DNA from: Verrucomicrobiota bacterium
Lineage (GTDB): Bacteria; Verrucomicrobiota; Verrucomicrobiia; Limisphaerales; UBA11358
Direction of reading: 5' to 3'
Assembly: GCA_028872915.1 (NCBI GenBank)
Contig: JAGWNY010000006.1
Location: 1-64,000 of the forward strand
DNA: 64,000 nucleotides
Shown here: in pieces, positions 54,264 through 63,193 of the stretch
How the letters are laid out: the number at the start of each line of letters is the position of its first letter
Position numbering within the stretch: the first letter of the stretch is position 1
Notes under the pieces: model-generated
Databases searched by the model: none
Told to the model about the DNA's origin: nothing
Seen by the model: the letters and a program-made list of their open reading frames with translations, nothing else
Program-made: the position numbers and the translations under genes

Positions 54264-57200
54264 TCACCCCGCCTGCGCCACCGGTTCTTGTTTTGCCGGG
54301 TCGTCGTTTTCCTTGCGGAATTTCACGCTGACGATCTTGCTGACCCCATGCTCTTCCATCGTCACGCCGTAGAGGACGTTGGCCATGGCAATGGTGCGCT
54401 TGTTATGGGTGATGATGATGAATTGCGACTGCGCGATGAAACGTTGCAGGACCTTGACGAAGCGGAGGATGTTGGCCTCGTCAAGGGCGGCATCCAATTC
54501 GTCCAAAACGCAGAACGGACTGGGCTTGACCTGGTAGATGGAAAAGAGGAGCGCGACAGCCACCATGGTCTGCTCGCCGCCGGACAACAGGGAAATGCTT
54601 TGTTGCTGTTTGCCGGGCGGGCGGGCCGTGATTTCAATGCCGCTTTCGAGCACGTCATTGGCATCGGACAGGACGAGGTCAGCCTTGCCGCCGCCGAAAA
54701 CTTCGCCAAAGAGCGTTCGGAAATTTTCCCGCACTTTTTCGAACGTTTCCAGGAACATCCGCCGGGTCTGGGTGTTGATGCGTGAAATGACTTCGAGCAA
54801 CTGCGCCTTGGCTGAGACCAGATCGTCATGCTGTTTGGAGAGGAACTGGTATCGCTGTTCGGTTTCCTCGTATTCCTCAATGGCGACCAGGTTCACGGGG
54901 CCGATTTCATCGAGCCGCTGTTGCAGCGCTTCGATCTGCCGGACCACGGCGTCCCAGTCCGTGGCGGCGCCGCTGGCGGCCATTTCCTCCGGCGTCAGGG
55001 TTTGGACCCGGGCCGGCCCTTCGTCGGCAAACGTGATGGTGATGCACTCGCTGCGGACGTCGTCCAGTTGCACGTGGTATTTCTGCTGAATCCGGTCGCG
55101 GAGGTTCTGGACGGACATGTTATTCCGGGCCAGTTCAACTTCGACCGCGCCGCGGCGATTTTGCAGTTCCGTAAGGCCGCCGCGCTGCGAGCGCAATTGT
55201 TCTTCGCGGCAGGCAATGTCGGATTCCTGCGAATTTTTTTGCCCGATCAATTCGGCGGCGAGGGCGTTGACCTGCTCATGCTCATGCGCCAGCCGTTCCA
55301 TTTGCTGGCGCGATTCCTGGATTTCCAACCCCGCCTGCTCGCGCCGGGCAACGACCGCCTCGATTTCACCGCGCCGCTGGGCGGCAAGCTGATTCAATTC
55401 TTCAATCCGCCGCCCCAGCGCCTCTTGCTGGCGGCGAAACGAGGCCAGGAGTTGTTCCTCCGCCGCCAGCGCCACGCGGCTTTCAGTCAGGGCGGCGTTG
55501 GCCGTCTCGCGCGCGGCCCGCAGACTTTCCACGCCGGCGGTCAGCGCGGACGTGCGCTCGCGGCTTTCGCGTTCGCGCGCTTCAAATTCGGCCAGTTGCC
55601 GGAGCAGCGAATCGCGTTTTTGCATGCCTTCCTTTTCCTGGGCGGCGAGGCTTTGGACCTCGAAGAGGACGGTCTCAATTTTTTGCGCGAGCAGACGGGA
55701 GGAATTTTGGAGCGCGCGGAATTCCCCTTCGCGCGTGGCGATGGCCACTTCCTGTTCGCGCAGTTCCCCCTGCGCCTCCTGCAAGCCCGCCTGCAAGCCG
55801 GTTTGCTCGGCCTGCAACGCGCCGCGATTGCGGGAGGCTTCGGCCACGCGCTGTTGCATCTCGGCCAGTTCGCTTTCCAGTTCGGAAATCTGGTTTTTGC
55901 GGCCGAGGATGGAAGCGGGCGCCTTGGGATTGCCGTGGCCGTTGAGGTAACCGCCGGTATAGACCCCGTGGCGGCTGAGCAGATCGCCGGAAAGCGTCAC
56001 GAAATCGCAGCCGGCATGGCCGTTTTGGATTTGCGCGGTGGCGGTGGCCAGGTCCGATGCGATGAACGTGCGGCCCAGCAGGGACTTTAAAAGTTTTTCA
56101 ACCGACGGATCGCTCTGGACAACGCTCAAGGCATGAACAATGCCGCCGGCTGGAAGCGCCTCCCCGCCCGTTTGGGCGCCGGGCGCCATTTCGCCCTCGA
56201 ATGCAAGCTGTTTTTCATCCGCGGGGCGCTGCATAGCCAGCGCCGCCACGCTGGCGCGTCCCGCCTTGTTGGCATTGAGATCGGCGAGGATTTCCTGCGC
56301 GGATTCCGGCTGCTCGGTCAGCACCAATTGGAGGTGATGGCCAAGGGCGTTTTCCATTGCCACGACAAACCGTTCCGGCACGCGGATGTGATCGGCGAGG
56401 GAACCAATGACGGCGCGGCCGGCGTCGCGCGAGCGAAGGGCGGCCACGGCGCCGGCGTCGAAGCCCTCGCGGGAGCGTTCCAATTGTTCGATGACGCTCA
56501 AGCGCGACCGTTTGGCGGCCTGTTGCTGCAACATTTCGTCCTGTTCAACAGAGGAACGGGCCAATTCCTCCTGGACCTGCCGAAGGCGTTCCTGCCGTTG
56601 TGTCACGGCTTCGCGCCGGGCCTGGGCATTGAGCTTTTCCGCTTCAACGGACATTGTAAATTCTCCCAAGCGGGCATCCAGAAGGGCGCGTTCCTCTTCA
56701 AGCTGCGCTTTTTCCGCGGAAAGCTTCTCCAGGCGGACGGCGTTGCCCTGCTTTTGAAGTTCCAAGGCGGTCATCTCGTTGCGGATCCGCGTGAGGTCCT
56801 GGGCGGCGGTGAAGGCGGCCGACTGCGCCTGGCGCAGTTGTTCCTGAGTATCTTTCAGGCGGTTTTCCACGTCGGCAAGAGCGGCCTGTCGTTTTTCCAG
56901 GGCATCGCGATGCGCCGCCAGCGCGGCCTCGGAACCGGATAGATTGCCGGCTACCACCGCCAACTCTTCCCCGGCAGCGTGGCAACGTTCGCCGGCCTGG
57001 GCGATCTCAGCCAGCGCGCGGGAATTCTGTGATTCAAGTTCTCGCAGCCGTTCCTCATTGTATTGGATGCGGCTCTCATGCCGTCCGGCTTCCGCCTTCA
57101 ATTCCAGTCCGCGTTGTTGCCGCGCCGAAACCTCGTGTTCGAGCGCCATGAGCCGCTCGCGCAATTGCCGGATTTCATCTTCACGCCCCAGCACTTCCGC

Positions 57201-58928: not shown

Positions 58929-59939
58929 TCATTTTGGATTATTGGTTGAACGCGGGCGCCAGGGCGGGATTTTCAGGCGGCGGCGGTGGTGGGACACGCC
59001 GCTTAACGTCCGATTCAACTGACGCGCGATTTTCGGGTCGGGGCGCGTGCCGAGCAATTTTTCTTCGGCCGCCGTCCAATCCCGCAACTTGGGATCGGCT
59101 TTGGGAATGTGCAGCAATTCGCGGCGTTGGGTGACAGCGAGAACTGAACGACTAATCCGGCGGGCGACTTCTGAATCCGGCGCTGTTCCGAGCAATCGGA
59201 GTTCATCTGTCGTCCAGGAGACACGCGATTTTTTAGGACCAACATAGGCGGGAATATTCTGCGACCGGCGTTTGAACATTGCGACGTGTGGCGGGCAGCC
59301 GATTTGTTCGGCAGCTTCCCTGTCGGACATGGTTCCCAGCAGGGCGAGTTGTTCTTGCGTCCAGACGTGGCGCGTCGGCGAAGGAATACGCAGGCGGATG
59401 CGGCGTTTATGAACGGAAACAACCGATCGGCCAATTCGCCATGCCACTTCGGTGTCCGGCATGGCGCCCAACAGTTTGTCCTCGGCGGGCGTCCAGGGGT
59501 GAAAGTCCGGATTGCAGAAGGGGATGCCAAGTTTCAGGCGTTTGTGGCGCACGTCTTTGACGGTGCGGCCGGTCAACTCGGCGACTTTGCGGTCCGGGTA
59601 ACAGCCCAGCATGGCAATCTCGCCGGGTTGCCACTGGTGATAATCGGGACGCTTGAAGGGAATGCCAAGCTGGCGCCGGCGATAGGCGACTTGATAGCGG
59701 GGCCGTTTGAGCAGCATGGCGACTTGTTCATCCGGACGGTCACCGAGGAGTTTATCGTCATCGGGGCTCCATTTTTTGAGGAAGCGGATGTGCCTGAGAT
59801 TGCGGCGGACGATAACCGCCTCGACGGTACGACCAAGTTTTCTTGCGATGGCGCGATCCGATTTAGTTCCCAATAACTGTTCTTCTTCCGCCGTCCAGGG
59901 ACGTTTGTTCCGCGGCGCCGCGGGATTGAGGTGGTTCAT
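58929..59939 (-). CDS. Protein made of seven tandem Myb/SANT-like helix-turn-helix modules
   Basis: Seven units of about 44-48 aa: W(T/S)..E..LLG..(P/S)D..(I/V)A..(I/L).R....V..RR..L.IP. Confidence 0.8.
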   Translation of the reverse strand: MNHLNPAAPRNKRPWTAEEEQLLGTKSDRAIARKLGRTVEAVIVRRNLRHIRFLKKWSPDDDKLLGDRPDEQVAMLLKRPRYQVAYRRRQLGIPFKRPDYHQWQPGEIAMLGCYPDRKVAELTGRTVKDVRHKRLKLGIPFCNPDFHPWTPAEDKLLGAMPDTEVAWRIGRSVVSVHKRRIRLRIPSPTRHVWTQEQLALLGTMSDREAAEQIGCPPHVAMFKRRSQNIPAYVGPKKSRVSWTTDELRLLGTAPDSEVARRISRSVLAVTQRRELLHIPKADPKLRDWTAAEEKLLGTRPDPKIARQLNRTLSGVSHHRRRLKIPPWRPRSTNNPK

Positions 59940-59974: not shown

Positions 59975-62900
59975 TCACGGTGTGGAGAGACGATAGAATT
60001 TGCTGCTGACGCCCGTGGCGCTCTGGTCAATAAATTGGAACAAACCATCGGGACCAGCAACGTTGGTGGCAATCACCTCCCATTGCGGGAGAGGCAGGCT
60101 CAAATTGGCGGTTGCCCACAGCCGGTTCGTGCTGCCGGGAGTGCCGGCCAGATACACGGTCGCGGGTCCGCCGGCGCTGTTGGAGATGCCGTAAGCGTTG
60201 GGTTCCAGCAGCACCGTCAAGTTCGCCACGGCGCTCGTGGCGCTGCCGAACAGGTTGTTGACGATCACCTGATAGTGGCCGTCGTCGTTGGTGATGACCG
60301 GCCCGAAGGACAACCCGGCATTCGTCGCTCCGGCCAGGAGGGTGTTCGTATTGAAATACCATTGGTAATCCAGTCCCAAGCTTCCCGTTGCCGACACACC
60401 AAAATTGGCCGTGTCGCCAATGGGCAAGGTCAAGTCGCCAGGGTTGCTGGCGATGGCCGGCGACGCGATATTGGCTGCCGCAAAGTACGCGGACGGCTTG
60501 CCACCCGCCGTGGTGAAATTGCCTCCCGCAAACAAGGTATTTCCCGACACCGCCAGAGCGAGAACGTCGGCGTTCATCCCCGAACCCAAGGCTGACCAGG
60601 AACTGCCGTTCCATTCGGCGATGTTTGTGGCCGCCACGCTGCCTGCTGTCCTGAATCCGCCTCCCACAAACAAGTTGTTTCCCGATACTGCCAGAGCGTT
60701 AACGTAGGGGTTGGGGTTTATTTCCGAACCCGAAATCCCCGAACCCAAGGCTGACCAGGCACTGCCGCTCCACTCGGCAATGTTTGTGGCCGACACGCCG
60801 CCCGCCGAAGTGAAATTTCCTCCGACAAACAAGTTGGTTCCCGACACCGCCAGAACATAAACGCCGCCGTTGATCCCCGAACCCAAGGCCGACCAGGCAC
60901 TGCCGTTCCATTCGGCAATGTTCGTGGCCGCCACACCGCCCGCCGTAGTGAAACTTCCTCCGGCAAACAAGTTGGTTCCCGATACCGCCAGAGCGAGCAC
61001 TTGGCCATTCATTCCGGAGCCCAAGGCTAACCAGGAACTGCCGTTCCATTCAGCAATGTAATTGGCCGACACGCCGCCTGCCGTGGTAAAATAGCCTCCC
61101 GCAAACAAGTTGGTTCCCGACACCGCCAGAGCATTAACGCCGCTGTCGCTGTTCATCCCCGAACCCAAGGCCGACCAGGAACTGCCGTTCCATTCGGCAA
61201 TGTAATTGACCCACACGCCGCCTGCCATCGTAAAGGCGCCTCCAGCAAACAAGTTGGTTCCCGACACCGCCAGAGAGAAAACGTAGTAGTCCATCCCCGA
61301 ACCCAAGTCCGACCAGGAACTGCCGTTCCATTCGGCGATGAGGTTGGCCGCCACACCGCCTGCCGTGGTAAAATAGCCTCCCGCAAACAAGTCGGTTCCC
61401 GACACCGCCAGAGCGTTAACGTAGTAGTCCATCCCCGAACCCAAGTCCGACCAGGAACTGCCGTTCCATTCGGCGATGTAGTTGGTCGCCACGCCGCCCG
61501 CCATGCCGAACTCACCTCCCGCAAACAAGTTGGGTCCCGACACGGCCAGGGCGAAAACGCCGCCGCTAGCGTCGCTGTTCATCCCCGAACCCAGGGCTGA
61601 CCACAAACTGCCATTCCACTCGGCGATGTTCGTGGCCGACACTCCACCCGCCGTCGCGAAACCGCCTCCCACATACAAGTTGGTTCCCGACACCGCCAGA
61701 GCATAGACGTCGCTGTCCATCCCCGAACCCAAGGCTGACCAGGAACCGCCGTTCCATTCGGCGATGTAGTTGGCCGCCGCTCCGCCCGCCGTGGTGAACT
61801 GACCTCCCGCAAACAAGTTGGTTCCCGACACGGCCAGGGCGAAAACGCCGCCGTTAGCGTTGTTGTTCATCCCGGAACCCAAGACCGACCAGGAGCTGCC
61901 GTTCCATTCGGCGATGTAGTTGGCCGCCCCTCCGCCGGCCGTCGTGAAATTTCCTCCCGCAAACAAGTTGGTTCCCGACACCGCCAGAGCGAAAACAGTG
62001 TGATTCATCCCCGAACCCAAAGCCGACCAGGAACTGCCATTCCACTCGGCAATGTCATTGGCCGTCACTCCGCCCGCCGTGCCGAACCATCCGCCCGCGA
62101 ACAAGTTGGTTCCCGACACCGCCAGAGCGAAAACGCCGTAAACGGCGTAGTTTATTCCCGAACCCAAGGCCGACCAGGAACTGCCGTTCCACTCGGCAAT
62201 GCAATTGGCCGACACGCCGCCTGCCGTGGTAAAATAACCTGCCGCAAACAAGTTGGTTCCCGACACCGCCAGAGCCCTAACGATGCCCTTCAACCCCGAG
62301 CCCAAGGCCGACCAGGAACTGCCGTTCCATTCGGCGATATTATTGGCCATCACATCGCCTGCGACGGTGAAACTGCCGCCGACGTAAAGGTTGCCGGAAC
62401 CATCGGCGGCAGTGGCATAAACGGTTCCATTCACACTGGGCGCGCTAAAACTACTCATCCAATTGGCATCGCTAAACGTCGGGTCAATCCGCACCGGATA
62501 TTCCGCCGCCGCATCCTCCACCACCACCGCCAGCCGGCTGGCTGACAGCACTTCCATTCTGGCCGCCAGTTCCCTGCCCCGCGCGTCCACCGCCCTCAGC
62601 CGGTTATAGACCATCTGCCGTCCGCCGTCGGCCAAAACGAGCCGCGCCCCGCCGGGCATTGCCTCAGCCTTCGCTCCGTCCACTTCCAACTCCAGCCGCA
62701 CGGGGCCGCTGCCTTCTGGCCGCCGTTCAATCACAAAATCCTGCCGCAACCCGTCAATGCCCGCCGAATATTCCTCCGTCAATCCCGGACGGATGAACAG
62801 CGCCCTTTGCCCGTCCACCTCCGCCTTTCCGGACCGCGCAAGCAATTGGGCGCCGGCGCGCCCCATCGCCCGCGCCACCACCCGAAACGGCTCGCCTTTG

Positions 62901-63193
62901 CTCCCATCTTTCGTGGAAACCAGCCACAAGCCTTGCGTTGTGACGCGGCCCTTCAGCCGCTGAAACACGCACCGCAACGTCGCGCCGCCGGGACTGGCCG
63001 CAACGGCCAAGCCGTTCCCGGAATATTGTTTTCCCGCCATCGCACCGATTTGATCGAACGGAATGGCGGCGGCATGAGCCGCAGTGGCCGCCTTGTGAGC
63101 CGCGGGAACGGCCGCTGGTCGGGCGTGAGAGTTGAGGGTTGCGAGCGCCGGCAAAGCCAGCACGATGAGCAGATTTTGAATTTTCAGTTTCAT
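59975..63193 (-). CDS. Secreted protein with about 14 propeller-like repeats, an Ig-like domain and a C-terminal ...SSKFYRLSTP tail
   Basis: MKLKIQNLLIVLALPALATLNSHA signal; repeats ALAVSGTNLFAGGNFTTAGGVAANYIAEWNGSSWSALGSGM; Ig-like PGDLTLPIGDTANFGVSATGSLGLDYQWYFN. Confidence 0.88.
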   Translation of the reverse strand: MKLKIQNLLIVLALPALATLNSHARPAAVPAAHKAATAAHAAAIPFDQIGAMAGKQYSGNGLAVAASPGGATLRCVFQRLKGRVTTQGLWLVSTKDGSKGEPFRVVARAMGRAGAQLLARSGKAEVDGQRALFIRPGLTEEYSAGIDGLRQDFVIERRPEGSGPVRLELEVDGAKAEAMPGGARLVLADGGRQMVYNRLRAVDARGRELAARMEVLSASRLAVVVEDAAAEYPVRIDPTFSDANWMSSFSAPSVNGTVYATAADGSGNLYVGGSFTVAGDVMANNIAEWNGSSWSALGSGLKGIVRALAVSGTNLFAAGYFTTAGGVSANCIAEWNGSSWSALGSGINYAVYGVFALAVSGTNLFAGGWFGTAGGVTANDIAEWNGSSWSALGSGMNHTVFALAVSGTNLFAGGNFTTAGGGAANYIAEWNGSSWSVLGSGMNNNANGGVFALAVSGTNLFAGGQFTTAGGAAANYIAEWNGGSWSALGSGMDSDVYALAVSGTNLYVGGGFATAGGVSATNIAEWNGSLWSALGSGMNSDASGGVFALAVSGPNLFAGGEFGMAGGVATNYIAEWNGSSWSDLGSGMDYYVNALAVSGTDLFAGGYFTTAGGVAANLIAEWNGSSWSDLGSGMDYYVFSLAVSGTNLFAGGAFTMAGGVWVNYIAEWNGSSWSALGSGMNSDSGVNALAVSGTNLFAGGYFTTAGGVSANYIAEWNGSSWLALGSGMNGQVLALAVSGTNLFAGGSFTTAGGVAATNIAEWNGSAWSALGSGINGGVYVLAVSGTNLFVGGNFTSAGGVSATNIAEWSGSAWSALGSGISGSEINPNPYVNALAVSGNNLFVGGGFRTAGSVAATNIAEWNGSSWSALGSGMNADVLALAVSGNTLFAGGNFTTAGGKPSAYFAAANIASPAIASNPGDLTLPIGDTANFGVSATGSLGLDYQWYFNTNTLLAGATNAGLSFGPVITNDDGHYQVIVNNLFGSATSAVANLTVLLEPNAYGISNSAGGPATVYLAGTPGSTNRLWATANLSLPLPQWEVIATNVAGPDGLFQFIDQSATGVSSKFYRLSTP

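Follow-up and report, generated by a model that had tools for sequence, protein, structure and literature searches.

To our knowledge, the bacterial proteins known to consist purely of modular DNA-reading units are mainly TALE-like. In TALE-like and zinc-finger arrays alike, recognition residues vary by unit, the number of units is variable and a long composite site is expected. Helix-turn-helix (HTH) domains are also used in series: Reb1 and other multi-Myb proteins chain three-helix DNA-binding domains, the D5 protein of phage T5 is a DNA-binding protein with HTH units, four units of the kind described here come after the nuclease in GIY-YIG homing endonucleases of Vibrio phages (PHROG 7168), and TnsD of Tn7 chooses a long DNA site by means of several C-terminal HTH domains in one chain (PMC10293859). 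Here we describe a gene of a Verrucomicrobiota bacterium, located in a 64,000-nucleotide stretch of DNA (the window), the product of which (the window protein) contains seven HTH units. It shares with TALE-like and zinc-finger arrays the features given above, whereas its units are HTH of ~46 aa rather than TALE helices of 34 aa or fingers that bind zinc. The TnsD proteins of Tn7-like transposons differ from it in possessing a TniQ core and a zinc finger and in having no regular repeat; a match of the array family to PF15978 was weak and was seen in a Vibrio phage relative only. Judged from its sequence and those of its relatives, the window protein is probably a modular, sequence-specific reader of double-stranded DNA, and its most fitting place is among the modular DNA-reading arrays, as a new variant built from HTH units.

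The array gene, its units and their predicted fold

The gene and the units that it encodes are as follows.

58929..59939, minus strand: array protein, ORF with ATG start, 336 aa, pI 11.0, 39 kDa
59784..59897, minus strand: HTH unit 1, residues 15-52, exposed helix-3 residues V E I V N
59658..59771, minus strand: HTH unit 2, residues 57-94, exposed helix-3 residues R Y A Y R
59520..59633, minus strand: HTH unit 3, residues 103-140, exposed helix-3 residues V K R H L
59382..59495, minus strand: HTH unit 4, residues 149-186, exposed helix-3 residues V V H K I
59250..59363, minus strand: HTH unit 5, residues 193-230, exposed helix-3 residues P H M F R
59103..59216, minus strand: HTH unit 6, residues 242-279, exposed helix-3 residues V L T Q E
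58965..59078, minus strand: HTH unit 7, residues 288-325, exposed helix-3 residues L S S H R

The units begin at W15, W57, W103, W149, W193, W242 and W288 and follow the pattern W-T-x-x-E-x-x-L-L-G-T-x-x-D-x-x-[VIL]-A-x-x-[LI]-G-R-[ST]-x-x-x-V-x-x-R-R-x-x-L-x-I-P. Their spacing of 42-49 aa is wider than the 44-48 aa given in an initial reading of this DNA made without database searches (the sequence-only reading). Unit-against-unit scores (BLOSUM62, local) ranged from 49 to 100 in all 21 pairs, compared to a mean of 18 and a maximum of 38 for shuffled units, and AlphaFold2, applied to the protein with 16 relatives, predicted 21 helices, three in each of the seven units, at a mean pLDDT of 85.8. 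These results bear out the seven diverged units of the sequence-only reading, which had quoted the unit sequences correctly, and the three-helix architecture with a basic third helix that it had assigned to them: over more than 420 units, the mean net charge is +2.7 in helix 3 and -1.0 in the acidic helix 1. The predicted arrangement between units is loose (pTM = 0.38), so that unit orientation is not fixed without DNA and a single continuous DNA path is unproven. No domains other than the units were seen in the window protein. In a codon-level comparison, every site class had a dN/dS well below 1 in each homologue pair that permitted the measurement; because of this, and because counterparts exist across many genomes, the array gene is not an artefact.

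Relation to described families

No model of Pfam, NCBIfam or PADLOC lies above its cut-off for the window protein. Among phage protein families, PHROG 323 (labelled transcriptional regulator, phage T5 D5-like) matches it at 3e-37 over four stretches and PHROG 11492 (unknown) at 3e-20, which makes PHROG 323 the nearest and sole named home of the protein. The term undescribed, used in the sequence-only reading, is thus mostly right: it holds for the first three collections, the exception being the match to PHROG 323. T5 D5 itself matches the 46-aa unit model weakly, at a total of 3e-5 over weak stretches (best single stretch, 0.016), and is therefore at most a distant cousin of the array: the profile match is significant and D5 has DNA-binding HTH units, but it contains no regular 46-aa array. 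Full-text searches (HTH arrays, T5 D5, TALE-like screens, polydactyl proteins) found no prior description of the family, and the portions of PMC11417379 and PMC5472282 that were consulted do not describe it.

The array possesses the tandem three-helix HTH repeats of Myb/SANT proteins (seven of three helices each), and the sequence-only reading had called it Myb/SANT-like. Membership in that family was rejected: PF00249 reached 16.6 bits over 12 residues, below its gathering cut-off of 24.4, and of the three tryptophans of a Myb repeat just the first is kept (97%), helices 2 and 3 being without one. The Myb label is a resemblance, not a membership. A sequence search of the PDB with the single window protein gave no match, a profile search returned B-Myb alone (0.019), and Foldseek against the PDB found nothing significant; its best hit, Reb1 (E = 0.09), shares chained three-helix DNA-binding domains with the array, which does not have the tryptophan pattern of Reb1 and other multi-Myb proteins. 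Relatives of the window protein do lie above the cut-off for the homeodomain-like HTH_23 (PF13384). A TALE-like repeat (33-35 aa, two helices and a two-residue variable pair) was considered and set aside, since the array units have 42-49 aa and three helices, with the variable residues spread over helix 3.

Helix-3 residues within and between arrays

Counting the tryptophan of each unit as position 1, the exposed face of helix 3 comprises positions 25, 26, 29, 30 and 33. The scaffold residues W, L, G, D, A, V and R hardly vary across 442 units, in which these five positions rank among the most variable (entropy, 3.6-4.0 bits). In 436 units they form 405 distinct combinations, and in showing no simple residue code the array differs from TALE-like and zinc-finger arrays. 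Because variability alone may mean an absence of constraint, units within an array were compared with counterpart units, i.e. units in the same slot of a related array, using a unit alignment that left out the five exposed positions. At 0.5-0.7 identity elsewhere in the unit, exposed helix-3 residues were identical at 215 of 1965 positions (11%) within arrays and at 80 of 130 (62%) between counterparts, versus 30% and 35%, respectively, for other variable surface positions; the p value of this contrast (3e-39) is not to be taken literally, because the pairs are not independent. In a scan of single positions, with the five exposed ones again excluded from module matching, 9 of the 11 top-contrast positions fell in 24-34. 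When pairs were binned by scaffold identity and array families were bootstrapped, helix-3 identity was ~64% in counterparts and ~10%, the chance level, within arrays, compared to 53% and 23% for other surface positions. The difference between the two differences had a 95% interval of 0.12-0.34, with imperfect matching, as mean scaffold identity was 0.79 in counterparts and 0.69 within arrays. The sequence-only reading had noted that helix-3 residues differ between units, and the chance-level identity within arrays upholds this; the survey of variability that it had suggested indicates that the exposed residues behave like specificity residues, varying by unit while being kept by slot.

Individual pairs show where this behavior is found. 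The six-unit array of the Pseudomonas plasmid pQBR103 and that of the Pseudomonas plasmid pPma4326F, 90% identical, have changed at 0 of 30 exposed helix-3 sites and at 10 of 66 other surface sites. Two Paraburkholderia pairs have changed at 5/40 and 13/45 helix-3 sites versus 35/84 and 51/98 other surface sites, and the Paraburkholderia and plasmid pairs pooled gave an odds ratio of 0.26 (p = 8e-6). An additional Paraburkholderia pair from within one genome, outside of the first set, resembles these conserved pairs (identical at 36 of 50 helix-3 sites and 50 of 110 others). Verrucomicrobiota counterpart pairs taken alone gave no excess of helix-3 conservation over other surface positions (odds ratio, 0.96), and some change faster at helix 3, e.g. 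L044/L101 (13/20 versus 18/44). Thus, recognition residues that appear to be kept by slot and varied by unit are clear in Proteobacteria but not, relative to other surface positions, in Verrucomicrobiota alone. This mixture suggests that targets have been conserved in some lineages and that retargeting has occurred in others.

Helix-3 residues that vary by unit and are nevertheless kept by slot are the hallmark of a DNA reader that is modular and sequence specific, and they bear on an alternative in which the array is a coater of DNA or an architectural protein with little sequence preference, like the abundant D5 of phage T5, units having been added for avidity. The best named family is D5-like, D5 is annotated as a DNA-binding protein required for replication and late transcription, and the pI of the window protein is high, all as such a coater should be. 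It would, however, have helix-3 residues that are similar between units or drifting, instead of residues at chance level within arrays that are held between counterparts, and D5 matches the unit model just marginally; we consider this reading improbable. Some HTH and SANT folds bind RNA or protein, and the helix-3 pattern would also fit specific targets of either kind, as it cannot tell ligands apart. That the array specifically binds structured RNA or proteins, and not duplex DNA, is nonetheless very improbable, given a basic helix 3 in HTH geometry, the PF13384 matches of relatives and the fusion to a DNA nuclease in phage relatives. The polydactyl DNA-reading array of the sequence-only reading survives as a modular HTH array with a specificity-like helix-3 pattern, divested of its Myb/SANT membership.

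Distribution, and gain and loss of units

The family is scattered and largely unnamed, occurring in Verrucomicrobiota, Planctomycetota, Paraburkholderia, Pseudomonas plasmids and Vibrio phages. Counting arrays of at least three units, we collected 81 distinct arrays of 3-11 units, i.e. the window protein and 80 related ones; the search for units across genomes and the survey of repeat number that had been proposed thus revealed counterparts in many genomes. The 3.19-Mb genome of the bacterium itself encodes more arrays on three other contigs (C47, C13 and C44), and a further contig (C87, locus L157, ~54986-55123) holds a degraded one-unit fragment of the array gene (144 bp, 79% identity) that takes in 18 bp 5′ of the ATG and is then out of frame or lost. 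The distribution is patchy, with matches in 12 of 59 near relatives, in 11 of 385 genomes from the class and, with another query, in 2 of 390 genomes of a phylum-wide sample. When named genomes were scanned with a pattern, matches came from Verrucomicrobiota, Planctomycetota, Paraburkholderia, Stenotrophomonas, Hydromonas, an acidobacterial MAG and an omnitrophotal MAG. In a single verrucomicrobial genome, 11 contigs hold matches. Eighty plasmid records, mostly from Pseudomonas, and nine phage records, some with an annotated GIY-YIG nuclease, also contain matches, viral relatives being undersampled. The units of L047, L070, L074, L095 and L098, from Verrucomicrobiota, Planctomycetota and Acidobacteriota, are joined to a domain that has no name (PIPWP...LILCGDLVRAV..ES..A..HWGV...V..WRRALGV).

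Three related plasmids carry one array in versions of nine, seven and five units, the outer units of which match one to one, while the shorter versions are without different internal blocks. In the nine-unit array, two adjacent units resemble a tandem duplicate that is 70% identical elsewhere and changed at four of the five helix-3 residues. By these alignments the units are evolutionary modules, whole units being gained or lost between matching plasmid arrays. An identical 19-mer, TTCTGGCACACCTTAGGTG, which contains the palindrome CACCTtAGGTG, lies upstream of the array on three plasmids that were compared (L036:5921, L117:2940 and L118:2939), and other groups of plasmid arrays have different conserved upstream blocks. 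On a Pseudomonas rhodesiae plasmid (L118 / L161), the IS21-family element ISPre4 splits the array gene after the fifth unit.

Genomic surroundings and nuclease-bearing relatives

The array gene starts ~35 nt after the stop of a gene for a 1072-aa repeat protein, both on the minus strand, and the two may therefore be cotranscribed. The repeat protein (59975-63193, minus strand) is made of many near-identical units (AEWNGSSWSALGSGM...), has no NCBIfam match and is specified by 11.4 copies of a 138-bp DNA repeat (78% matches). An SMC gene lies 876 nt downstream of the array gene. Eight relatives do not share the region upstream of SMC, and an empty site could therefore not be shown; no neighbour or operon partner recurs in more than three of the fetched array loci; hence the context gives no role. 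The only neighbours common to three loci (L016, L017 and L066; L077, L082 and L094) resembled, by eye, a ParB-like protein and a tyrosine recombinase.

In the Vibrio phage relatives, a GIY-YIG nuclease comes first and the array units follow. The window protein has no Pfam match to the GIY-YIG catalytic domain, and the statement of the sequence-only reading that no effector domain is present holds for it, though not for these phage proteins. The fusion favours DNA reading, as a DNA-targeting role is to be expected there. It also raises the alternative that the array is one half, the targeting half, of a nuclease or mobile element, being either a homing endonuclease decayed by loss of GIY-YIG or a protein acting in trans as TnsD does for Tn7. 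Plasmid relatives are common, one of them adjoining a resolvase, and TnsD selects its site with several C-terminal HTH domains (PMC10293859), which accord with such a role. Against this, no enzyme recurs beside arrays in more than three fetched loci, no integrase or tyrosine recombinase was matched on the array-bearing contigs of the bacterium's own genome, and the arrays without an enzyme are the majority and are kept under purifying selection. We regard a targeting half as improbable, slightly more so than a DNA coater, and retain the DNA reader as the preferred interpretation.

Proposed mode of action and significance

We propose that each unit would serve as a minimal three-helix HTH with helix 3 in the major groove, making base contacts via exposed positions 25, 26, 29, 30 and 33, and that the near-constant linkers would string the units along DNA, yielding a long composite site that we estimate at ~3-4 bp per unit and >20 bp overall. 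DNA binding, the register of the units along DNA and the length of the site are predicted in this scheme, as is the regulatory role. With no effector, the array would act by occupancy, at a few sites, and might repress or activate transcription or form a roadblock. A regulatory role of this kind is tentative, and our best guess is a regulator or roadblock linked to mobile DNA. The nucleoid or anti-mobile-element function put forward in the sequence-only reading found no support, and many relatives are themselves on plasmids and phages. It is conceivable, if rather unlikely, that the family is a prokaryotic counterpart of the polydactyl zinc-finger proteins, consisting of widespread, mobile and rapidly retargeting pure HTH arrays that could be recombined or reprogrammed unit by unit, each unit reading a few bases of its own.

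If our interpretation is true, these arrays would represent a second, HTH-based kind of modular reader, which is compact and metal-free, has up to 11 units and bears natural signatures of retargeting, and they would provide a new scaffold for the study and construction of long-site DNA binders. They would also raise the question of what uses plasmids, phages and soil bacteria make of such addressable proteins, a question that the conserved plasmid arrays make immediately testable in a laboratory Pseudomonas.
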